Part shown: positions 17,968 through 33,620 of the stretch, one piece after another
Layout: every line of letters starts with the position of its first letter
Numbering within the stretch: position 1 is the first letter of the stretch
Assembly (NCBI RefSeq): GCF_000327485.1
Contig: NC_019943.1
Span: forward strand, 2,108,001 to 2,172,000
Reading direction: 5' to 3'
DNA from: Methanoregula formicica SMSP
Lineage (GTDB): Archaea; Halobacteriota; Methanomicrobia; Methanomicrobiales; Methanospirillaceae
Length of the DNA stretch: 64,000 nucleotides
Notes under the pieces: model-generated
The model's input: the letters and a program-made list of their open reading frames with translations, nothing else
Told to the model about the DNA's origin: nothing
Database searches by the model: none
Position numbers and translations under genes: made by a program

Positions 17968-18495
17968 ATGAACTCAGAAAAAATAATCCTCACAAAAGAA
18001 CTGTTCCGGGTCCTTTCCTCCGATACTCGCATTACAATCCTGAAAAAACTTGCCCAACGAAGAAGGACGATCAGTGAATTATCACGCGAGTTAAAGATCG
18101 CTAAGTCAACAGTACACGAACATCTTGCTCTTATGACTGGTGCGGGGTTGATCACCCCCGTTCCCGATGAACATGAGTGGAAATATTATGAAATAACACA
18201 GAATGGTGCAAATTTGCTTGCACCGGAAAATTCAATTCCAATATCCATTCTTCTTACAACAACCGGATTCCTTTTTCTGGCGGGATCCATAACTGCATTT
18301 GTCGTTGCCTGGTTCTCGGTGAAGCAACCGCTCGTTTCAACGCCCATGCACGGTGGAGGTTATCCGGGTTATTTATACCCGGACCTCTTGTCAACCAGTA
18401 TTGGAATTCTTCTTCTCATAGCCGGGATTCTGGTTCTCATCCGGCTATTCAGGATCCGAACATCATTTAAGGCTGATTCCCTCCAGCCCTCCTGA
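17968..18495 (+). CDS. ArsR-like winged-helix regulator anchored by two C-terminal membrane helices
   Basis: A 175-residue protein. Residues 1-85 form a winged helix: LFRVLSSDTRITILKKLA, then the recognition region TISELSRELKIAKSTVHEHL and the wing KYYEITQNG. The C-terminal half has two hydrophobic helices (ILLTTTGFLFLAGSITAFVVAW, about 92-113, and STSIGILLLIAGILVLIRLF, about 148-167) joined by a short Pro/Gly-rich loop. A DNA-binding domain tethered to the membrane suggests a one-component regulator responding to an envelope signal. It is followed by a secreted C39-like protein and lies within the segment bracketed by the duplicated polB end, so the two may have arrived together. The target is unknown. 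Confidence 0.82.
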   Translation: MNSEKIILTKELFRVLSSDTRITILKKLAQRRRTISELSRELKIAKSTVHEHLALMTGAGLITPVPDEHEWKYYEITQNGANLLAPENSIPISILLTTTGFLFLAGSITAFVVAWFSVKQPLVSTPMHGGGYPGYLYPDLLSTSIGILLLIAGILVLIRLFRIRTSFKADSLQPS

Positions 18496-24284: not shown

Positions 24285-24782
24285 TCAGACCGTGCCCTTT
24301 ACCCGGTGCAGCATCATGGTCAGCGCAAAGGAGTTTCCACCGGTGTCCTTCCCGCTGGAATACGTCAGCACAACAAACATCGTATCCGGATCAATCAGCG
24401 TGCCCTTTGCCCAGCCACCCGGCTGGTCGATGATCGTGAGGGATTTCCCCTCCGGATCAACAATGCCGAGAACGGTCTGGTTTACATCAGGGCCATAGGG
24501 CTGCCGAAAGAGCTTGAAGCCTTTGACAACGGCACCTTCCTGCGATGAAAATACCCACGTGTTCTGCCCGATCGTGACATCCTGGATGGTGGTGTTCAGG
24601 TTCCAGCCGGCCTCGTCTGTGGATTTCCAGGTACCGGTGATGTCCGGATAACTGGCGGCAGATGACAATGTGTGCGTGGCCGGTGAAGCCGGGGGAGAGG
24701 CGGGTGTTGTTGTGCATCCCGCACAGAAAAGGAGTGCAATGAGGAGAGATGCAACGCAGACTGATGAAATGCTTTTTTTCAT
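24285..24782 (-). CDS. Small secreted lipoprotein of unknown function
   Basis: A 165-residue protein with a lipoprotein signal: MKKSISSVCVASLLIALLFC, then AGC at the lipobox, with Cys22 as the likely lipidated residue, and a Thr/Pro/Ser-rich linker. The mature domain begins at ITGTWKSTDEAGW and consists of short strands (WVFSSQEGAVVKGFKLF, GGWAKGTLIDPDTMFVVLTY), typical of a small beta-barrel 'GTW' lipocalin-like fold often seen in methanogen lipoproteins. It lies 74 bases after the radical SAM gene on the same strand and may be the last gene of the redox operon, though the gap allows its own promoter. Confidence 0.75.
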   Translation of the reverse strand: MKKSISSVCVASLLIALLFCAGCTTTPASPPASPATHTLSSAASYPDITGTWKSTDEAGWNLNTTIQDVTIGQNTWVFSSQEGAVVKGFKLFRQPYGPDVNQTVLGIVDPEGKSLTIIDQPGGWAKGTLIDPDTMFVVLTYSSGKDTGGNSFALTMMLHRVKGTV

Positions 24783-24856
24783 AACCGGAATAATCCCGCT
24801 GAATTATTATTGGTTCCGGGACATGCCGCGGAGGTCCTGCCACCTGTTTCCTGAAG

Positions 24857-25939
24857 TCACGTATCGGACGCGAGCAGTGTTTCCACCCACGCACGGTTCG
24901 CCCGGAGCGCACAGCCGCCTTCCGATTCAGAAAGGAGAGACGGTTCCTCGCGCAACCGGGCAAGCAGCCGTGACCTGAGAGCGTCTTGTAATGGGACCTT
25001 TACAAGATTCGCATCAGAGTACGGCGCTGCCGGGCAGGGTTCGAGATTTCCTGACGGGCTCACGTGCACAAACCCGCGGCCTGCTGCAAGGCACCCGCCG
25101 TACTCATCCTCATCGCCAGGAAATCCGATGAAGAGCCCCGGGAACTTCCGGTTGAAGTCTGCAAGAACGATCTGCAGGACCTTCTTCTGCTCGTGGGTGA
25201 GCACGAGAGGTTCTGTACCCGGTTCCATCGGCACATACTCAACGAACGCGAGGACGCGTGCCCCGGCGGAAAGCATCTCCCGGGCGAAGGCTTCGCCCGT
25301 CACTTGCGGGAAATTTTCACGTGACGTAGTGACTGAGACACCGAAGAAGATACTGCGCTGCTTCAGCCGGGCACAGACCGCAAGCAGCCGGTCGTAAACC
25401 CCCTCCCCCCGGCGTGCATCGGTCTCCTCCCGGAATCCTTCGAAACTGATGACGGGAACGATGTTCCGGTGCTGTGCGATGGTCGCGGCGACAGCATCAT
25501 CGATTAAGAGACCGTTCGTGAAGACCGGGAAGAGGACTTCCGGATGGCTCTGTGCCAGAGCAAGGATCTCATCAAGCCTCACCAGCGGTTCGCCGCCGGC
25601 AATTACGATGACCGAGACCCCGAGTTCTGCTGCCTGGCCGACAACGCCAACAAGGATCTCCCGGCTCATCTCGGGTGCCGGTTTCTCGTGGCGCCCGTGC
25701 ATGTAGCAGCCGGCGCAGGCGAGGTTGCAGCGCGAGGTGATGCTCGTAATCATCACCGGTGGAACGATCAGGCCATTGTTCTCGTGACGCTTCCGCATTG
25801 CGGCTGCTTTTTTCTGGTGGTGGAGGATAACAGTACCGGAAATAGCAAGAGAGGGATCGTGAGCGATTATCCGGAGTGCCTGTGCCAGCGTGTCACTGAT
25901 GGTTGTATCAAACCTGTCGCGAAAATTCCCGGTATCCAT
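24857..25939 (-). CDS. Radical SAM protein in the flavodoxin/ferredoxin operon
   Basis: A 360-residue radical SAM enzyme. The cluster-binding cysteines are Cys71, Cys75 and Cys78 in CNLACAGCYMHGRHE. Further SAM-binding features are VIAGGEPLV (GGE motif) and the strand PVFTNGLLIDD. Near the C-terminus VSPSGNLEPCPAAPYSD resembles the start of a SPASM-type extension but has too few cysteines for a full auxiliary cluster. A helical N-terminal domain of about 55 residues precedes the barrel. The substrate is unknown. It is 13 bases downstream of a four-helix membrane protein and seven genes into an operon that supplies flavodoxin and ferredoxin modules. These could provide its low-potential electrons. 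Confidence 0.85.
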   Translation of the reverse strand: MDTGNFRDRFDTTISDTLAQALRIIAHDPSLAISGTVILHHQKKAAAMRKRHENNGLIVPPVMITSITSRCNLACAGCYMHGRHEKPAPEMSREILVGVVGQAAELGVSVIVIAGGEPLVRLDEILALAQSHPEVLFPVFTNGLLIDDAVAATIAQHRNIVPVISFEGFREETDARRGEGVYDRLLAVCARLKQRSIFFGVSVTTSRENFPQVTGEAFAREMLSAGARVLAFVEYVPMEPGTEPLVLTHEQKKVLQIVLADFNRKFPGLFIGFPGDEDEYGGCLAAGRGFVHVSPSGNLEPCPAAPYSDANLVKVPLQDALRSRLLARLREEPSLLSESEGGCALRANRAWVETLLASDT

Positions 25940-25952
25940 GTCCTGCTCCCGA

Positions 25953-26576
25953 TTATTCCGGTTGTAATACCGGACTCTTCCTGTTCCACCGCTGCACCGC
26001 AGTCACGAACCAGCCGGCAATCGCACCCAGCACGATGACAAAGGCGAGAATACTGAAACCAAATTTGAGCAGTGTCGCAGCCATCGTGATCTGGGCAATA
26101 CTGTACATCTCCATCGGCCACGCGAGGAGCATCGCGATGATCCCGATGTTCTCCAGGTAATCGAAGAGGGCCCCGATAACCGGGATAACGTTGAGCCGGT
26201 GCCACCGGCTTTTTTCAGGAAGCCATTTTTTCAGGAACCCCGTGATGAGCGTCGAGAGGAAGAGTGCATAGAAGAACGGGACGAGAAGATCGAGCGGCAC
26301 GATATGCGTCAGCTCAAATGCCCGCCCCGCATCACCCATTGCCGCGAGGAACGCATACGCCTGTTCCGGCGTGTAGAACACTTCCATGTCAAGGATGCCC
26401 ACCCCGCCGGTAATTGACTTCAGCTCCACTACCCCGAAGGGCCTCCCGTTGACAAGGAAGCCGGTGATGAGGACCCCGGCAAGGGAAAGAAGGATGGTGC
26501 CAGGGGATGAAAGCGCGATGATCCGGTCGGAGAGATCGTCAAGGATCTTCTTCCCGCTCCCGATTCCGTCCATCAC
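25953..26576 (-). CDS. Four-helix membrane protein in the redox operon
   Basis: A 207-residue protein with four predicted membrane helices: around residues 25-45 (GTILLSLAGVLITGFLV), 98-115 (FFYALFLSTLITGFL), 128-155 (VIPVIGALFDYLENIGIIAMLL) and 165-193 (LLKFGFSILAFVIVLGAIAGW). A loop of about 55 residues between the first two contains FYTPEQAYAFLAAMG. No cysteine ligands or haem motifs are visible. It overlaps the NapH-like gene by 4 bases and precedes the radical SAM gene by 13, so it is likely a membrane partner in the same electron-transfer pathway. The family was not recognised. Confidence 0.75.
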   Translation of the reverse strand: MMDGIGSGKKILDDLSDRIIALSSPGTILLSLAGVLITGFLVNGRPFGVVELKSITGGVGILDMEVFYTPEQAYAFLAAMGDAGRAFELTHIVPLDLLVPFFYALFLSTLITGFLKKWLPEKSRWHRLNVIPVIGALFDYLENIGIIAMLLAWPMEMYSIAQITMAATLLKFGFSILAFVIVLGAIAGWFVTAVQRWNRKSPVLQPE

Positions 26577-27349
26577 GAATCCCTCCGTTGTTCATTCGTT
26601 TTCCATCCGTATGAGATGACGCCTTTTGGGCATGCGTCGGCGCAGCTGGCGCAGAGGATACAGTCGGCATTTTCCATCTCATCCTTCCGGACCATGCCAT
26701 TCACGTCAAGGCCCATCGGGCATGCCTTCGAGCACTTCTGGCAGTCGATACAGCGCGATGCGTCTGCAGAGAGACCCAGCGCCGGCCAGTGGATCAGGTT
26801 CCGGATCTTCCGCCCTGCTACCATGATACCGGCTATCGGGCAGAAGACATGGCAGGTCCCGCGCTTTCCGGTGATGAACGCGATGATGATGATGAACAGG
26901 AAGATTATACCCACCATCATCAGGACCTGGACCGACGAGATCGAGATGCCGTTCACGGTGCCGTAGATGGGGTCCACCGAACGGATCCCGCCGGCCTGGA
27001 AAAAGGCGAGCGCGAGCATGCCCAGCCAGATGGCGGTGATGCCGTACTTGATCCAGTTGCGCCAGCCTTCCTTCACGGTATGCTTAATGACCGGCGAACA
27101 GATCTCCTGCCATGCCCCCATCGGGCAGAGCCAGCCGCACCAGAGCCGGGCAACGACAAGCGAGAGGAGGAAGAGCGCAATGTACAGCAGCAGGCTGCCC
27201 GTTGCCACGCCTTCCCCGGCACCCATCATGACGATGATGGGCGAGATGTAGAAGATAGTGACCGGGATTAAGATAAAGGACAGGATCAGGATCCACTTCC
27301 GGATGTTCTGGCGTGACGATGCTTGTTTGGTTTCTGGTTTTTCCGTCAT
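26573..27349 (-). CDS. NapH-like membrane-bound polyferredoxin
   Basis: A 258-residue membrane iron-sulfur protein. It has about four membrane helices. CGWLC at Cys71/Cys75 and TCHVFC at Cys166/Cys170 follow membrane segments, as in NapH/PceC/NosR-type proteins. Two 4Fe-4S motifs lie at the C-terminus: Cys200, 203, 206 and 210 (CIDCQKCSKAC) and Cys230, 233, 236 and 240 (CILCASCADAC). Such proteins move electrons between the membrane and soluble redox partners. It sits between the flavodoxin-ferredoxin fusions (14 bases upstream) and the four-helix protein (4-base overlap), and could be the membrane exit or entry point of the chain. Confidence 0.88.
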   Translation of the reverse strand: MTEKPETKQASSRQNIRKWILILSFILIPVTIFYISPIIVMMGAGEGVATGSLLLYIALFLLSLVVARLWCGWLCPMGAWQEICSPVIKHTVKEGWRNWIKYGITAIWLGMLALAFFQAGGIRSVDPIYGTVNGISISSVQVLMMVGIIFLFIIIIAFITGKRGTCHVFCPIAGIMVAGRKIRNLIHWPALGLSADASRCIDCQKCSKACPMGLDVNGMVRKDEMENADCILCASCADACPKGVISYGWKTNEQRRDS

Positions 27350-27363
27350 GGTAATTTTCTCAG

Positions 27364-28176
27364 TCAGGGTTGGTTTTCCAGCGCTTCCCCGCGCTGGGCT
27401 TTCATATCCGCGATCTTCAGGTCAGGGTGCCGGTACCTGCCCCGGTTCTTTGTCTTCTCTGTCCATTGGATTGCTTTTGCCGGGCAGAGGTTCAGGCAGG
27501 CCATGCAGAGCTCGCAGTGGTGCTGCCACTGCGGTTTCTCGTCCACCATCTCGATGTTCCTGACCGGGCAGACCCGCGAGCAGGTGCCGCAGTGCGTGCA
27601 TTTCTCATCGGAGACGAACTGCCGGTCCGCCTCGTGGAGCTGCCGCATGAACCCGTCATACATCAGCCGTTTCAGGAGCGACGAGAAAGGGGCAAACCCC
27701 GGCCGTACCGTGATGCCCTTCTGGACTTTACCGGCAATGTCCTGAACCTTTTTATCCGCGGCAGAAAGGGCTTTCTCCAACTTTCCCCCCTCAGCCGGGG
27801 AATAGAGTGGGACAAAGTTCCCGACCATCCGCACAACCCACGCTGCATCGAATGGCCGGCCATTCTTCTTCTCAGCGATAGCGTTTGCCTGGAGGAGGGC
27901 CGATGCCCCAATCCCGCCCAGGGTCAGGACGCAGAAGGTGTAGCCTGCCTTTTTGAGGTCGAGCCTTCCTAAAAATCCCACGACAATCGCGGGAAGACCG
28001 AAGTCATACACCGGGGCGACTATGCCGACACGGTCAGCGGCCGGGACAATGTCCCCACGGATGTCCTTCTGCGATGCAATCGGCACAAGCTCGCAGTCTC
28101 CGAGGATTGTGGCTATCGTTCTTGCAGCGGCAAGCGAGTTGCCGGTACCGGTGAAGTAATAGATGATTGTCTTCAT
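27364..28176 (-). CDS. EFR1-type flavodoxin-ferredoxin fusion protein (second copy)
   Basis: A 270-residue protein from ATG 28176, which overlaps the upstream gene by 4 bases; a frame to 28314 is open but internal to that gene. The flavodoxin part opens with IIYYFTGTGNSLAAART, in which TGTGNS is the FMN-phosphate loop. The C-terminal 80 residues carry two 4Fe-4S motifs, CTHCGTCSRVCP and CELCMACLNLCP. This is the EFR1 architecture, combining FMN and two clusters in one soluble chain. It is clearly a paralogue of the preceding gene. Partners are probably the membrane polyferredoxin and radical SAM protein downstream. Confidence 0.9.
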   Translation of the reverse strand: MKTIIYYFTGTGNSLAAARTIATILGDCELVPIASQKDIRGDIVPAADRVGIVAPVYDFGLPAIVVGFLGRLDLKKAGYTFCVLTLGGIGASALLQANAIAEKKNGRPFDAAWVVRMVGNFVPLYSPAEGGKLEKALSAADKKVQDIAGKVQKGITVRPGFAPFSSLLKRLMYDGFMRQLHEADRQFVSDEKCTHCGTCSRVCPVRNIEMVDEKPQWQHHCELCMACLNLCPAKAIQWTEKTKNRGRYRHPDLKIADMKAQRGEALENQP

Positions 28177-28976
28177 GGTGATTCTCCCCGCAGGTTTTTC
28201 AGGTCGGCAATCGTGACATCCGGATTCCGGTACCGCCCCCACGATTCCGTCTTTGGCCCTGCCTGGATTGCCTGCACCGGGCAGGTATGGATGCAGCCGC
28301 AACAGAGCTCGCACCGGTGTTTCCAGACTGGCCGGTCATTGACCAGTTCGATATTGTTCGAGGGGCAGATGGCAACGCAGGTCCCGCAGGCCGTACACTT
28401 TTCCGTTACGGTGAATTTTTTATCTCCTTCACGAACATGGGACCTGAAATAAGGATACGCGAGAGAATACAGCACGCGGTTGATGAGGGATGAGGGAAGA
28501 GTGCGTTTCTCGCACCGTCCGACAGCTCCCGCAATGTCTCCGATTACGCCATCCGCTTTTTGTAAGATCTCCCGCTGTTTCTCAATCGCCAGAGGTTCGT
28601 ACATCAGGATATAATTCCCGGGCATGGCAAGCCCGAATCCCGCGTCAAGCCCCCGTCCCTGCCGCTCCCGCAGGATGATGTCAAGCTGCCGGAGTGCGGC
28701 TGACTCCCCGCCCCCACCATGGGTCATGACACAGAAGACGTATTGTGTTGCTGCAAGGTCCATGCGCCTGGCAAATGAGGTCACCATGACGGGCAGACCG
28801 TAGAAATAGACCGGGGCGACAATACCAATACGTTCAGCAGCGGGTACGATCTCGCCTGAAGTATCCTGAAGCGATGCGATCGGCACGAGCTCGGTCTCTC
28901 CCAGTGCCGCCGCGATCTTTTTTGCCGCGGCAAGCGAGTTGCCGGTGCCGGTGAAGTAATAGAGGACCGTCTTCAT
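28173..28976 (-). CDS. EFR1-type flavodoxin-ferredoxin fusion protein (first copy)
   Basis: A 267-residue protein with an N-terminal flavodoxin domain (VLYYFTGTGNSLAAAKK) and a C-terminal ferredoxin domain with CTACGTCVAICP and CELCCGCIHTCP. The second cluster motif has an extra adjacent cysteine, which the second copy lacks. It overlaps both neighbours by 4 bases. The two copies keep the same domain order and spacing but differ in many positions, suggesting an old duplication with separate electron partners. Physiological role inferred: FMN/FeS electron relay in a methanogen, where such fusions can replace separate ferredoxin and flavodoxin. Confidence 0.9.
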   Translation of the reverse strand: MKTVLYYFTGTGNSLAAAKKIAAALGETELVPIASLQDTSGEIVPAAERIGIVAPVYFYGLPVMVTSFARRMDLAATQYVFCVMTHGGGGESAALRQLDIILRERQGRGLDAGFGLAMPGNYILMYEPLAIEKQREILQKADGVIGDIAGAVGRCEKRTLPSSLINRVLYSLAYPYFRSHVREGDKKFTVTEKCTACGTCVAICPSNNIELVNDRPVWKHRCELCCGCIHTCPVQAIQAGPKTESWGRYRNPDVTIADLKNLRGESP

Positions 28977-29464
28977 GCTTTGTCTGCCTCCTCCTGTACT
29001 TTTGCGATAAGTGCGGCCACGAGTGTACCATCTTCAATCTCCTTTTTGCTCAGGGAGAACTGTCCGGTAATGATCATGCCTTTTGCCGCAAGGTCCTTTT
29101 CAAGGACCTGAAGTGTCGTGCCGGCTTTTTCCCCGCAGGTGGCAAAAATCACTGCCCGTTTTCCCCTGCATCCCGTGAGCGCGACAAGGGCTTTCCTGAT
29201 TGCCGGGACGGGTTTGCCGCCCCAGACAGGCGTCCCGATCACGACAAGATCAGATTCGGAGAGATCGATATTGTCCGGCTGAGATCCGGTATCCCGCACG
29301 TTCATGCCGGGCGAATGGCGGGCCATGAACGCAACAAACCGGGACAGGAGATCCTTTGACTGGATCTCGATGATCTCCCCCCCGCAGGCATTCCGGATCT
29401 GTTCAGCAATTCCATAGGTTGTTCCCGTATACGATGCACAGATAATTGTCAGGTTCATACTCAC
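28973..29464 (-). CDS. Flavodoxin family protein
   Basis: A 163-residue stand-alone flavodoxin-like protein. The phosphate loop is CASYTGTTYGIAEQI (residues 10-24), and the flavin-side loops are GTPVWGGKPVPAI and FATCGEKAG. The start is a GTG at 29464 overlapping the upstream stop; an ATG at 29458 would shorten it by two residues. Its GTPVWGGKP motif matches GTPVWAWKP in the flavodoxin half of the upstream ArsR fusion, so the two flavodoxins are related and could form a mixed pair. It overlaps the next gene by 4 bases. Confidence 0.88.
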   Translation of the reverse strand: MSMNLTIICASYTGTTYGIAEQIRNACGGEIIEIQSKDLLSRFVAFMARHSPGMNVRDTGSQPDNIDLSESDLVVIGTPVWGGKPVPAIRKALVALTGCRGKRAVIFATCGEKAGTTLQVLEKDLAAKGMIITGQFSLSKKEIEDGTLVAALIAKVQEEADKA

Positions 29465-30372
29465 ACGTCCGCATTCTCGCTGTTTCCTTCACCTGTTTCT
29501 CCGTCAGCCATGCCCCTGAGCGGGTTCGCCGCAATGATCTGCCGGAGCAGTTCCCCGCCGGCATCCGGGTTCTTCGCGTCATCCTGGTTAAGGCTGATCT
29601 CAGCCATAACTGTCACATCCCGCTCCTCCAGTGATTTCCTGAGGAGGGGAAGAGCCTCCCCGGGCTGGTTGATGCAGGTGGTAAAGACCACGGCCATCTT
29701 GCCCTCGCACCCACGGAGTGCCTGTACCGCGGCGTTGATGGCCGGTGCGGGCTTCCAGGCCCAGACCGGCGTCCCGATGATCAGGAGGTCATACCCGGAT
29801 ACATCGATCTCGCCCGGCTCGATCGGGTCACAGGCTCCTTTCCGGGAACGGACAACCCCTGTTGTGTACGCGGTGAAGGAAGAGTAGGGAGCCCGTGTCC
29901 GCACCTCGACAAGATCGCAGCCGCTCGCGTTCCGGATCCCTTCGGCAACCCGCCTTGTAACCCCTGAATATGAGTAGAAGACAACGCAGGCGCGGACCGG
30001 CCGGCCGGGCGTGGCTTTCCGCACCATCTCGCGGCTGCACTGCTGCATCACGCTTGCGTACATCAGCTCGAAACGGTTCCGGAACTCCATCATCCGTTCA
30101 CGGTTGACCGTGTAATAGACGTAGAACCCGTCCCGGCGCGACCCGACAAGTCCCTCGGCTTTCAGGGTCTTTAAATGCTGCGAGACCGCTGGCTGGGAGA
30201 TCTTCAGCCGGGCGGCAAGTTCGCTGACACCGAGCGTCCCACTCGTGTCCGTTGAAAGGATGTAAATGATCTGGAGCCTTGTTAAGTCACCGAGTGCCTT
30301 AAATGTCCCGGCCATCTGCGGGACGATCTCGCAGAGATTGTTGCACTCAGCGCACTTTTTGCAGGGCTCCAT
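29461..30372 (-). CDS. Cys4-ArsR-flavodoxin fusion regulator
   Basis: A 303-residue, three-part protein. Residues 1-14 carry CKKCAECNNLC (Cys4, 7, 10 and 14), a spacing that suits a 4Fe-4S cluster or metal site. Residues 20-105 are an ArsR winged helix: FKALGDLTRLQIIYIL, recognition helix SQPAVSQHLKTL, wing RRDGFYVYYTV. Residues about 125-285 are a flavodoxin: VVFYSYSGVTRRVAEGI as phosphate loop, LLIIGTPVWAWKPAPAI and FTTCINQPGEAL. It is the first gene of a seven-gene redox operon, and a 9+8+9 palindrome lies just before its ATG, so autoregulation is likely. A DNA-binding domain fused to a flavin domain and a cysteine cluster suggests direct redox sensing. The fusion is seen; the sensing role is inferred. 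Confidence 0.88.
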   Translation of the reverse strand: MEPCKKCAECNNLCEIVPQMAGTFKALGDLTRLQIIYILSTDTSGTLGVSELAARLKISQPAVSQHLKTLKAEGLVGSRRDGFYVYYTVNRERMMEFRNRFELMYASVMQQCSREMVRKATPGRPVRACVVFYSYSGVTRRVAEGIRNASGCDLVEVRTRAPYSSFTAYTTGVVRSRKGACDPIEPGEIDVSGYDLLIIGTPVWAWKPAPAINAAVQALRGCEGKMAVVFTTCINQPGEALPLLRKSLEERDVTVMAEISLNQDDAKNPDAGGELLRQIIAANPLRGMADGETGEGNSENADV

Positions 30373-30380
30373 AGAATCTG

Positions 30381-30406
30381 TATAAGTGTTTGCTTATACA
30401 CTTATA
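30381..30406. promoter_or_regulatory. Palindromic operator over the redox-operon promoter
   Basis: TATAAGTGT (30381-30389) and ACACTTATA (30398-30406) form a perfect 9-base inverted repeat with an 8-base spacer. A smaller ATAAG/CTTAT repeat is nested inside. The arms contain the TATA-like sequence of the leftward promoter, and the site begins nine bases before the ATG at 30372. ArsR-family repressors bind such dyads, so the product of the adjacent gene is the obvious candidate ligand; binding would block TBP. Confidence 0.7.
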
Positions 30407-30481
30407 TCTTTTTAGCTCTGCATCAGTTGTGCATGGCAGCACCTGCGGTCTTCGTGCAATACCGGAACAGAAAAAGAGGGA

Positions 30482-30676
30482 TCAGTATTTGGGACTGATC
30501 TTGTGGAGTTTTGGATCGATCTTGTACGCGATCGGCCGGTCGAGCAGGTCAAGTACATTCACTTTCTGGTCGATCAAATCCTGGTAATTGAAGTTCTCGG
30601 ACTTTATTGAACTTCCCTCCCCCCACATGACCACGATTCCTTCCGGTACCTTCTTGCTTGCTACGATGTCTGGCAT
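30482..30676 (-). CDS. Small hypothetical protein
   Basis: A 64-residue frame from ATG 30676 to a TGA. Codon use is typical of coding sequence in this window, and the product has a normal mix of residues (MPDIVASKKVPEGIVVMWGE at the start, ending KIDPKLHKISPKY). No signal peptide, cysteine motif or membrane helix is present. I do not recognise it. It sits between the redox-operon promoter and a GyrI-like gene and has no clear ribosome binding site. It could be a genuine small protein or a fragment of a larger gene. Confidence 0.45.
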   Translation of the reverse strand: MPDIVASKKVPEGIVVMWGEGSSIKSENFNYQDLIDQKVNVLDLLDRPIAYKIDPKLHKISPKY

Positions 30677-30759: not shown

Positions 30760-31239
30760 TCACGCGACAGGAATGTAGATCTCCGTCAGGATCTCTTCCG
30801 GAGGGACTTCCTGCGGATCATTGGGATAGATCTCGCGAATCGGGCCGCTGATCGTCAGTCCTCTTTTTTCTATCCATGCGAATGCGGAAAGGTATGTGGA
30901 TTCGCAGGATTCGTAGGGGCCCTTGTGCGTGACATGAACCATCGTTCCTCCGGGCAACGTGTACCGCCGGATATCCCCGCTTCCGGACGCAGGGCCGGCC
31001 ACTGGCCAGGCAACCTCAACCCGGGCAGTACCGTTTGCATCTGCCGCTTGTACCGCTTCCGGAGAGCATTCATGGCAGTTGAAGACGGGCGGGCCGGCGA
31101 TGGGGATCTTCTGTTCCATCATGTAACTGAGCACCTTCATCAGGAGCTCCGGGATAAGGGCATAGGTCCCGGACTTCTCGGTCCCCAGGACATCCATGGG
31201 AGGTATCTCAACAATAGCAACTTTTCCAGTTTCTGGCAT
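30760..31239 (-). CDS. GyrI-like small-molecule-binding domain protein
   Basis: A 159-residue protein from ATG 31239; a TTG at 31260 would add seven residues. It has the stand-alone effector-binding (GyrI/AraC-effector, SOUL-like) repeat pattern: KVAIVEIPPMDVLGTEKSG at the start, ELLMKVLSYMMEQKIPIAGPP, the HVTHKGPYE motif, TYLSAFAWIEKRGL, and the family ending EILTEIYIPV. Such domains bind hydrophobic or cationic ligands in a cleft, and some hydrolyse small molecules. No DNA-binding domain is attached. A TGATAATACT box lies about 25-30 bases upstream of the chosen start. Confidence 0.82.
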   Translation of the reverse strand: MPETGKVAIVEIPPMDVLGTEKSGTYALIPELLMKVLSYMMEQKIPIAGPPVFNCHECSPEAVQAADANGTARVEVAWPVAGPASGSGDIRRYTLPGGTMVHVTHKGPYESCESTYLSAFAWIEKRGLTISGPIREIYPNDPQEVPPEEILTEIYIPVA

Positions 31240-31358
31240 ACAGGAGAATCCTGTTTTCAAGTATTATCACTATGGCATGCAGGATGTGAAAATGAAGGGG
31301 TGTGGCACCGGGCGGACCGTGAAAAATGTTGCCACCCGTCGAAACGATTACGGAAAAA

Positions 31359-32651
31359 TCAGATGGGTTTATAGTGGCCCCACTTGCCGAGGGCCTCTTT
31401 GAGCTCTTTTGCCTTCTTTGCCTTCTCCTCAAGGGATACTCCTTCCTGCCATGCCTCCATTGCCTGCATGGTCGCCTTCGCGCCGGCCCTTGTCCCCTTC
31501 GGGTGGCCGTGGATCCCGCCGGAGACGAGCAGGACCATCTCGGGGCCGTAGATATCCATCACGTCCGGCACCAGGCCCGGATGCAGGCCGCCTGACGAGA
31601 CCGGGAACGCTGATTTGATCTTGCCCCAGTCCTGTTCGAGCAGCATTCCCTCAACTGCCGCGGTCTTCTTTTCGCGCAGCAGGTTCGCGAGCGCGAGCGA
31701 CTCCTTGCGGGAGCCGGTCAGCTTCCCGACCGCGGTACCGGTGTGGATCTGTGAGACCCCGATAAGCCGCATGATCTTTGCCAGGAACTGCATGCTGATC
31801 CCATGCTTCCGGTTCCGGTCGAGCGCAGCATGCATGGCGCGGTGGGCGTGGATGGCAAGGCCGAGATCAGAACAGTAGTCCCGCATGGTCATGACAGCCG
31901 CGGTACCGGCAACCACGACATCGATCATGCAGTAGTTCCAGCCATTAGCAGCAAGGAGGTCGGCCCGCTTCTTCATTGTTTCGACGTCGGCTGTTATATT
32001 TAAGAACGCGGACTTCTTCTCACCGGTCTCTTTTTCCGCCTTGTCCCGGAGTTTTGTCATATACTTCACCCGGTCCTCGAATTTGTTGAACGAGGTGGAG
32101 GTGAGGTTCTCGTCATCCTTGACGAAATCGAAGCCGCCCATCCAGGTCTCGTACCCGATATCGGCATGCTCCTTTGCCGAGAACCCGATCTTCGGCTTGG
32201 GCACAGCGCCGGTGAGGGGGCGCTTTTGTATCCCCATCATCTTCCGGATCCCGTCGTTCCCGAAGTGCGGGCCCTGGAAATGCTTCAGGTATGCCGGGGG
32301 AAGCGCGACATCGATAAGGCGCAGGTTCCTCACCGCTTTCATCCCGAAGATGTTGCCCGCGATCCCGCTCATCAGCTGGACCGTGTTGCCCTCTTCCCAG
32401 AGCTCGATGGGATATGCGATCTTCACGACATTTCCCTCAATGTGGAACGCCGTTGCCTGCAGGGCCTTCATCCGGGGGGGCATGGAGAAGAGCGTTGTCC
32501 ACGTGCCGGTCGAACTCTCTGATGCGATCCGGCCGGCGGCTTCCCTGCCGCTGACACCCGCCGCGGGCTCGAAATAGAAGAGGCAGACGAGGTCATCTTT
32601 TGCCGGTTCGTACTTCAGGTCAACGAATTCCTTGTACCAGTCAATCGCCAT
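31359..32651 (-). CDS. rbcL: Form III ribulose-1,5-bisphosphate carboxylase
   Basis: A 430-residue archaeal RuBisCO from ATG 32651 (AGGA upstream; a longer frame to 32855 has no family features). Catalytic positions are intact: Lys152 in PKPKIG (spinach K175), the carbamylated Lys178 in GGFDFVKDDEN (K201) with the metal-binding Asp/Glu next to it, loop 6 GTAVGKLTG (K334), and the phosphate loop SGGIHG. Form III enzymes act in AMP/nucleoside recycling or in the reductive hexulose phosphate cycle with phosphoribulokinase described in methanogens related to this one. None of the partner genes is nearby. The gene stands alone, with an A/T-rich promoter region at about 32670-32720. Confidence 0.95.
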   Translation of the reverse strand: MAIDWYKEFVDLKYEPAKDDLVCLFYFEPAAGVSGREAAGRIASESSTGTWTTLFSMPPRMKALQATAFHIEGNVVKIAYPIELWEEGNTVQLMSGIAGNIFGMKAVRNLRLIDVALPPAYLKHFQGPHFGNDGIRKMMGIQKRPLTGAVPKPKIGFSAKEHADIGYETWMGGFDFVKDDENLTSTSFNKFEDRVKYMTKLRDKAEKETGEKKSAFLNITADVETMKKRADLLAANGWNYCMIDVVVAGTAAVMTMRDYCSDLGLAIHAHRAMHAALDRNRKHGISMQFLAKIMRLIGVSQIHTGTAVGKLTGSRKESLALANLLREKKTAAVEGMLLEQDWGKIKSAFPVSSGGLHPGLVPDVMDIYGPEMVLLVSGGIHGHPKGTRAGAKATMQAMEAWQEGVSLEEKAKKAKELKEALGKWGHYKPI

Positions 32652-32765
32652 AGCAGTTCCTGTAATGTAGTAAAGGTTATCTTGGCTAAAAAAGGTGTAC
32701 AATAGAATAACATTCCCTGCCACCGCATTTGTGGCCGGTGTTACGCAGCATAACAAACGGCGGGT

Positions 32766-33620
32766 GTGAACAGCACCCGTGTTTTCCGGATCATGAAGAA
32801 CGAGGAGCATTCCGGCAGGATTCCGGCAGTCCTGGTCCACGGGTGGAACAGCCACCCGGGGATCTGGAACCGACTCTTGCCGCGGTTACAGGAAGCATTG
32901 ATACCTGCGTGGGTGTTTGACCATACCGGCCTTGCCGACAGGAGCATACCGGAGATCGCAGCCGCGATCGGGGATTTTGTTCAGGGCAAGCGGGATGAGA
33001 CCGGCTATTACGGGAACGTCGATGTTGTCTGCCATTCGGTCGGGACCTGCATTGCCCGCTATTACCTGGAGGTGATTGACGGGGAGAGGATGACTGCCCA
33101 CGTCCGGCAGCTCATCGGCCTTGGCCCGCCCAACAACGGCTCCGCCATGGCCGAACTCTTCTTTGACCCGGTACAGGGCGCAGAGATCATCAACCGGCTC
33201 ACGGGCGTATTCGTCCCCCCCGGATACGATCCCTCCTCTGACCGGATCGTGCACGATGTGCGGCCGGGAAGTGCGGTCATGCACAACCTCAGGAACGCAG
33301 GCATCCGCCAGGACATGGCCTACCATATCATCGTCACCGGAAATCCGGGGGAATCACCGGACTTCTTCCCCCTGTTCCACGGCGCAACCTGGGAGCGGGA
33401 AGAAGGCGGCAGGTATCGTCCCACCTTCCATGGCGACGGGCTTGTCACGCACAGCGAATCTGCCCTCCCGGGCATCTCGCTCGACATCATCACGGCAGGG
33501 CCCGGCACGGACGAGGAATCCCTGCCGCCCGGACAGTTCTGCCACATCCACCTGCCGCGAAACCCGGTGGTCATGGAACGCGTCCTTGGGTATCTCACGC
33601 TTCCGGCTGACCGTACCTGA
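32766..33620 (+). CDS. Alpha/beta hydrolase, lipase-like
   Basis: A 284-residue hydrolase (GTG at 32766; an ATG at 32793 is equally possible and removes nine residues). The oxyanion motif is VLVHGWNSHPGIW, and the nucleophile elbow is VCHSVGTC (C-H-S-V-G, Ser as nucleophile). A lipase-like LIGLGPPNNGSAM follows, and a C-terminal GDGLVTHSES holds the probable acid, with the catalytic His possibly in CHIHLPRNP. The LGPPNNGS stretch is typical of bacterial triacylglycerol lipases and PGAP1-like esterases. There is no signal peptide, so it is probably cytoplasmic. It is divergent from the RuBisCO gene with a gap of about 110 bases. Confidence 0.85.
   Translation: MNSTRVFRIMKNEEHSGRIPAVLVHGWNSHPGIWNRLLPRLQEALIPAWVFDHTGLADRSIPEIAAAIGDFVQGKRDETGYYGNVDVVCHSVGTCIARYYLEVIDGERMTAHVRQLIGLGPPNNGSAMAELFFDPVQGAEIINRLTGVFVPPGYDPSSDRIVHDVRPGSAVMHNLRNAGIRQDMAYHIIVTGNPGESPDFFPLFHGATWEREEGGRYRPTFHGDGLVTHSESALPGISLDIITAGPGTDEESLPPGQFCHIHLPRNPVVMERVLGYLTLPADRT

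Follow-up and report, generated by a model that had tools for sequence, protein, structure and literature searches.

The 64,000-nucleotide (nt) stretch of Methanoregula formicica SMSP DNA analysed here (NC_019943.1, positions 2,108,001 to 2,172,000, hereafter the window; the genome is a single contig of 2,820,858 bases) carries on its minus strand, at window positions 24857–30372, an operon of seven tightly packed genes. The first product joins an ArsR-type DNA-binding domain to a flavodoxin domain. We propose, with a probability of roughly 0.55, that this fusion is a thiol- and/or flavin mononucleotide (FMN)-based redox repressor of an electron-supply module which often feeds a radical S-adenosylmethionine (SAM) enzyme. 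A preliminary description of the DNA had already listed seven leftward genes and their order and close spacing, all of which were confirmed gene by gene. The features, in window coordinates, are the following.

30380–30399, strand not assigned (.): predicted operator, the palindrome GTATAAGCAAACACTTATAC as read on the minus strand, 7 nt 5' of the fusion start codon.
30401–30407, minus strand: TATA-box-like ATATAAG directly upstream of the operator, recognised from the sequence.
29461–30372, minus strand: ArsR-flavodoxin fusion regulator P0001, 303 amino acids (aa), comprising an N-terminal Cys4 motif, a winged helix-turn-helix (wHTH), a helix with the invariant Cys112 and a flavodoxin domain (125–285); defined from Pfam/NCBIfam, an alignment of 43 sequences and AlphaFold2.
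28973–29458, minus strand: stand-alone flavodoxin P0002, 161 aa; PF12682 barely above cut-off; at 19 of 40 loci.
28173–28976, minus strand: EFR1 flavodoxin-ferredoxin P0003, 267 aa; NF038196, 244.9 bits; EFR1 at 35 of 40 loci.
27364–28176, minus strand: second EFR1 flavodoxin-ferredoxin P0004, 270 aa; NF038196, 236.5 bits.
26573–27349, minus strand: NapH-like membrane polyferredoxin P0005, 258 aa; Fer4_5 and Fer4_9 above cut-off; at 20 of 40 loci.
25953–26573, minus strand: four-helix membrane protein P0006, 206 aa, without a family; at 13 of 40 loci.
24857–25939, minus strand: radical SAM protein P0007, 360 aa, with a twitch-like C-terminus; PF04055, E 1.5e-15; at 28 of 40 loci.
24285–24782, minus strand: lipoprotein, 165 aa, a neighbour 74 nt past the radical SAM gene and not a conserved member.

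Overlaps of 4 nt occur at both the P0002/P0003 and P0003/P0004 junctions, and P0005 and P0006 overlap by 1 nt, or by 4 nt from an upstream GTG. The fusion and P0002 genes are 2 nt apart from the ATG start or overlap by 4 nt from an upstream GTG. Gaps of 14 nt and 13 nt lie between P0004 and P0005 and between P0006 and P0007, respectively.

Both domains of the fusion were recognised well above their cut-offs. The ArsR/SmtB regulator domain matched PF01022 (HTH_5; 51.8 bits versus 22, E 7e-14) and NF033788 (81.9 versus 55), and the flavodoxin domain matched PF12682 (Flavodoxin_4; 39.7 versus 24, E 4e-10) and contains the FMN phosphate-binding loop. A CX2CX2CX3C motif (C4/C7/C10/C14) precedes them, so that the three-part architecture given in the preliminary description is present. 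Its further statement that the FMN loop is intact also holds, as the loop, of the S-x-[ST]-G-x-T type, is invariant in 43 of 43 homologues, as is W204. The AlphaFold2 model of P0001 (mean predicted local distance difference test score, pLDDT, 83) was compared with known structures by VIA-align. The flavodoxins 4ici and 3klb were matched at Z 17–18, the FMN-complex structures 3klb and 3edo at Z 16.6–17.4, and the best ArsR match was 6j05 (Z 14.6, 89 residues, 2.1 Å). The fusion is a predicted FMN-binding protein. Of the ten cysteines in P0001, Cys112 is the sole invariant one (43/43). In the model it sits on a long helix (91–120), the counterpart of the ArsR dimer-interface helix, which leads straight into the flavodoxin domain.

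The upstream regions of the 43 fusion genes have nearly nothing in common except a block 5–9 nt before the start codon. This block reads GTATAAGCAAACACTTATAC in most genera and shows 0–7 mismatches over the 43 homologues, with 7 in the most distant. Its chance expectation in the window is 0.04 at ≤2 mismatches, and no second copy was found in the genome at ≤3 mismatches. Among 199 Methanomicrobiales genomes the exact pattern GTATAAG-N6-CTTATAC was present in 22, in one copy each and always directly before the fusion gene, compared with 2 of 199 genomes for a control pattern; the scan thus yielded fusion promoters only and no other regulator targets. This includes G193, where the gene start is mostly masked by N, yet the ATG and opening codons can be read after the palindrome. 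Because the palindrome is single in each genome and always directly precedes the fusion gene, a role of the fusion as a dedicated autorepressor is very probable, and confinement of its action to its own operon through the predicted site is well supported. That the regulation is negative is inferred. A repressor site in archaea usually falls between TATA box and start codon. The spacing of TATA-like box and start codon predicts, by archaeal promoter rules, a short leader of a few nt on the transcript.

The fusion was found in 40 of the 199 Methanomicrobiales genomes, in one of them (G175) split by a stop codon. The search showed a sharp drop from full-length matches (E < 1e-78) to matches of the flavodoxin domain only. 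The closest named relatives are from Methanoregula metagenome-assembled genomes and are ≤90% identical. A profile search across the phylum (393 genomes) returned no full-length fusion outside Methanomicrobiales, no plasmid record covered 80% of the query, and none appeared elsewhere in a species-level genome scan, which reaches close relatives only. The 40 loci were laid out for gene content, with contig ends making all counts lower bounds. EFR1 genes were present at 35, radical SAM genes at 28, NapH-like genes at 20, an extra flavodoxin at 19 and the membrane protein at 13. Where EFR1 is lacking, a different flavodoxin-fold protein (FMN_red type or Flavodoxin_3) is mostly present, and flavodoxin-fold proteins of the Flavodoxin_5, Flavodoxin_3 and FMN_red types occur as extra members. 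Since the gene set recurs at 40 homologous loci, it is not a product of chance, and the co-occurrence of fusion and carriers in retained order, first noted in the window, extends across the Methanomicrobiales. Architecture, gene order, conservation and the predicted autoregulatory site are the solid part of this analysis.

P0003 and P0004 are EFR1 proteins by the family model, which both match over positions 1–242 far above the NF038196 cut-off of 75 bits. P0005 had been called a NapH-like polyferredoxin. The ferredoxin part of this name agrees with Fer4_5 and Fer4_9, which score above cut-off, but the NapH-specific scores are far too low (NF007013, 58.9 versus 234; TIGR02163, 54.8 versus 213; partial matches only), so P0005 at most resembles a membrane polyferredoxin. 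P0006 has no Pfam or NCBIfam match and its model, compared with the PDB, no match at E ≤ 0.001. "Four-helix membrane protein" is a fair name for it, the model (pLDDT 89) having four long helices besides short ones. D62, R84, D95, D138, E141 and N142 are invariant in an alignment of 12 sequences; a family with such charged and polar residues could possibly be an enzyme or a carrier.

P0007 is a radical SAM protein (PF04055, 58.2 bits versus 29.5) whose CX3CX2C motif, C71/C75/C78, is invariant in 28 of 28 sequences. Equally constant (28/28) is a C-terminal C283-X13-G-X4-C302 ... C343, which we take, by the usual definition, to be a three-cysteine auxiliary cluster site of the twitch type. NirJ, AhbC, AhbD, MftC and PqqE were rejected as identities, all being below their equivalog cut-offs (best NirJ, 67.6 versus 515). 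The prokaryotic viperin (pVip) model, considered for a possible anti-phage role, matches residues 66–196 only (E 1.9e-10), the generic radical SAM core, and the named-family models likewise recognise no more than that core.

Close homologues of the radical SAM gene occur in 35 genomes, and the fusion is present in 28 of these. Over the 199 genomes, 28 have both, 12 the fusion only and 7 the radical SAM gene only (Fisher p 2e-18, from a table tallied by hand and uncorrected for relatedness). The gene is common at the loci but not universal, and the module was therefore not built solely to feed it. What the loci constantly encode is electron carriers of the flavodoxin-fold and ferredoxin kinds, and among enzyme partners the radical SAM protein is the most frequent. 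The enzyme also has an independent life, because homologous genes stand behind TetR regulators: directly in L082 and, with an FMN_red-type gene between, in L081, both from Methanomicrobiales. These TetR-linked enzymes, together with one on a plasmid, pNP174, are 38–57% identical to P0007 and follow a one-component regulator mostly without electron carriers. On pNP174, from Methanosphaera sp. ISO3-F5 (L114:6371–8083), a TetR gene is followed without a gap by the radical SAM gene, whose product shares 38% identity with P0007. These arrangements suggest an inducible enzyme for which one-component regulators of different kinds can serve as the switch and which, in the present operon, is accompanied by its electron supply. 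At L083, L084 and L085, also from Methanomicrobiales, the radical SAM homologue adjoins what by eye appear to be genes for secreted M3-type peptidases, not electron carriers.

A tree built from 77 flavodoxins places all fused domains in a single group (Shimodaira–Hasegawa-like approximate likelihood ratio test, SH-aLRT, 99), to which neither the stand-alone flavodoxins of the operon nor those of unfused ArsR-flavodoxin pairs belong; the fusion event therefore most likely happened once. Branches are shorter for the fused domains than for the stand-alone paralogues of the operon; between the window and L034, for example, the fused domains differ by approximately 0.34 changes per column versus 0.66 for the stand-alone flavodoxins. 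This argues for a constrained role of the flavodoxin domain. Unfused ArsR relatives adjoin a flavodoxin gene in G103, G175 and G101, and all keep the equivalent of Cys112. A stand-alone ArsR from Methanocella (L094) is 47% identical and has the same cysteine, an adjoining EFR1 gene and its own palindrome before the ATG. A Methanosarcina-like ArsR family (L110–L112) also keeps the cysteine. The wHTH of these stand-alone proteins is 42–47% identical to that of the fusion, with the same α5 cysteine; they lack the flavodoxin domain, and the neighbours at L110–L112 differ. The simplest path would lead from an ArsR controlling an adjacent EFR1 or flavodoxin gene, through fusion in the Methanomicrobiales, to a variable recruitment of the NapH-like, membrane protein and radical SAM genes. 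At L094:2787–3681 the inverted repeat is ATAACAATAT...ATATTGTTAT before the ATG, followed by the EFR1 gene, which seems broken, its frame being lost and its middle part missing.

Motif definitions for ArsR proteins of the metal, arsenite, peroxide and reactive-sulfur classes were taken from PMC8960804. Metal sensors use an α3 CXCXXC, an α3N or an α5 DXHX10HXXE motif; P0001 has no cysteine in 41–80 and no histidine in 91–120. The AfArsR-type As(III) sensors carry a cysteine cluster at the end of α5, where the fusion has C112 alone. The peroxide sensor RexT uses a vicinal Cys-Cys pair, absent from P0001. In BigR, SqrR and HlyU a cysteine pair is formed between α2 and α5, whereas α2 of P0001 (30–41) has no cysteine and the family no conserved α2 cysteine column. 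A cysteine near the end of α5 is common to SqrR/BigR and the fusion, but in the fusion the invariant cysteine is located past the part alignable to SqrR and HlyU. RexT, BigR/SqrR and HlyU share the ArsR/SmtB wHTH with the fusion, which alone has a fused flavodoxin domain (PMC8960804). Like them, the fusion is likely to sense by thiol rather than by metal. The closest functioning parallel is a redox-responsive ArsR from Paracoccus denitrificans. Diamide releases it from DNA, its operators lie just ahead of the ATG, as here, and it controls the FMN-containing flavodoxin-fold protein ArsH (PMC9137774). That system consists of two proteins with an arsenite-responsive cysteine set in an ars operon without radical SAM or EFR1 genes; in the fusion two comparable domains are combined in one protein.

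Among flavin-based regulators, several use PAS, LOV or BLUF domains. No description of a flavodoxin-based regulator, of an ArsR-flavodoxin regulator in particular, or of an EFR1/radical SAM system was found in the open-access literature searched, most subscription journals lying outside it.

Taken together, a fusion dimer would bind the palindrome between TATA-like box and start codon and block its own operon but no further gene of the genome. Oxidation or other modification of Cys112, and/or a redox change of the bound FMN, may loosen DNA binding, and the redox state of this FMN would be set by the cell's flavodoxin/EFR1 pool. The derepressed operon would make flavodoxin, EFR1 and membrane polyferredoxin as a low-potential electron supply. 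Electrons would then go to the co-transcribed radical SAM enzyme where it is present and otherwise to other acceptors. Redox is the best inference for the signal, with a chemical inducer as its main rival, and is supported by the invariance of Cys112, the FMN loop and W204 (43/43 each) and by the precedent of a redox-responsive ArsR that controls the FMN protein ArsH. The redox-sensing and electron-supply module of the preliminary description is partly supported, by co-occurrence, gene order, FMN loop and operator, but not with Cys4 as the sensor or the radical SAM reaction as the sole purpose. Several points weigh against this proposal. Most thiol sensors work with two cysteines, so that a lone invariant one is unusual. 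Because the AlphaFold2 model (predicted template modelling score, pTM, 0.62) is of a monomer, it does not fix where Cys112 stands with respect to FMN. At 12 of 40 loci, some of them cut by contig ends, there is no radical SAM gene, and any sensing by the Methanocella relative would have to do without a flavodoxin domain. Only tentatively do we suggest a sharper version in which the flavodoxin domain itself is the sensor: its own FMN, with Cys112 as a relay, might read the oxidation of the low-potential carrier pool and switch synthesis of that pool, a direct electron-supply thermostat in methanogens.

A doubtful but serious alternative is an inducible detoxification cassette. Here the repressor would answer a small molecule such as an electrophile, quinone, nitro compound or other xenobiotic, which the flavoproteins and the radical SAM enzyme would modify, redox being the output chemistry and not the signal. 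The TetR-linked homologues in L081, L082 and the Methanosphaera plasmid fit this, as TetR proteins usually answer small molecules, and so do the FMN_red-type flavoproteins added at several loci and a quinone-oxidoreductase-like gene, identified by eye, at L068. Against it, the loci hold no recurring transporter or known detoxification gene, and the regulator has an invariant cysteine and FMN loop with no separate ligand pocket evident.

It is unlikely that the flavodoxin domain is a passenger carrier, fused by chance and kept for stoichiometry, with sensing wholly in the ArsR domain through Cys112. Unfused relatives do keep this cysteine without the domain, and the unfused ArsR-flavodoxin pairs show that the neighbours can work apart; yet the fusion has been retained since its single origin, with slower change than in the stand-alone paralogues, and 19 loci hold a separate flavodoxin besides.

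More improbable still is a metal, arsenite or iron-sulfur sensor acting through the N-terminal Cys4. The preliminary description had stressed this motif and had named its non-conservation as an argument against its own proposal; the motif is complete in the window protein and 27 of 43 homologues and broken in 16, with C4, C7, C10 and C14 kept in 29, 31, 37 and 35, respectively. On the family tree the intact and broken states need 6 changes, at least 4 of which are forced by supported branches. The fusions of L068 and L026 have no N-terminal cysteine whatever and retain the operator, L068 also the radical SAM gene. Since Cys4 is lost while operator, operon and Cys112 persist, it cannot be the essential sensor and was ruled out as such. 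The best structural match, 6j05, is an As(III)-responsive ArsR, but the fusion has neither the α3 CVC, present in two other ArsR genes of the genome, nor the α5 histidine motif, and the operon has no recurring arsenic or metal-efflux gene. An iron-starvation switch is hardly credible: flavodoxins are the classic replacement for ferredoxin at low iron, but most operon products are themselves iron-sulfur proteins (both EFR1 proteins, the polyferredoxin and the radical SAM protein).

The lipoprotein gene lies where it had been placed, 74 nt past the operon, and its product has no Pfam or NCBIfam match. Besides the window, L033 is the only genome in which it adjoins the operon, and it therefore falls outside the conserved unit; it was rejected as an operon member. 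In L089 another homologue lies close to the radical SAM gene without following it directly. Upstream of the operon, a 64-aa open reading frame (30482–30676, minus strand) without Pfam match has relatives at approximately 13 compared loci. A GyrI-like small-molecule-binding protein (30760–31260, minus strand) is encoded between the operon and, three genes upstream of the regulator in this methanogen, a RuBisCO large chain (31362–32855, minus strand) with both Pfam domains above cut-off, whose listed start is probably too far upstream. A second HTH_5 protein (17968–18495, plus strand), apparently with two C-terminal membrane helices, is a possible membrane-bound regulator.

The conserved set points to a radical SAM family that is uncharacterised and comes with its electron supply built in, and the fusion may be a redox-sensing regulator of a new kind in methane-producing archaea. 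With one 20-bp site, one gene and one operon per genome, the palindrome is a ready DNA probe. Low-potential electron supply limits both radical SAM chemistry and methanogenesis, and if FMN tunes DNA binding, the fusion would show how strict anaerobes gauge this supply.

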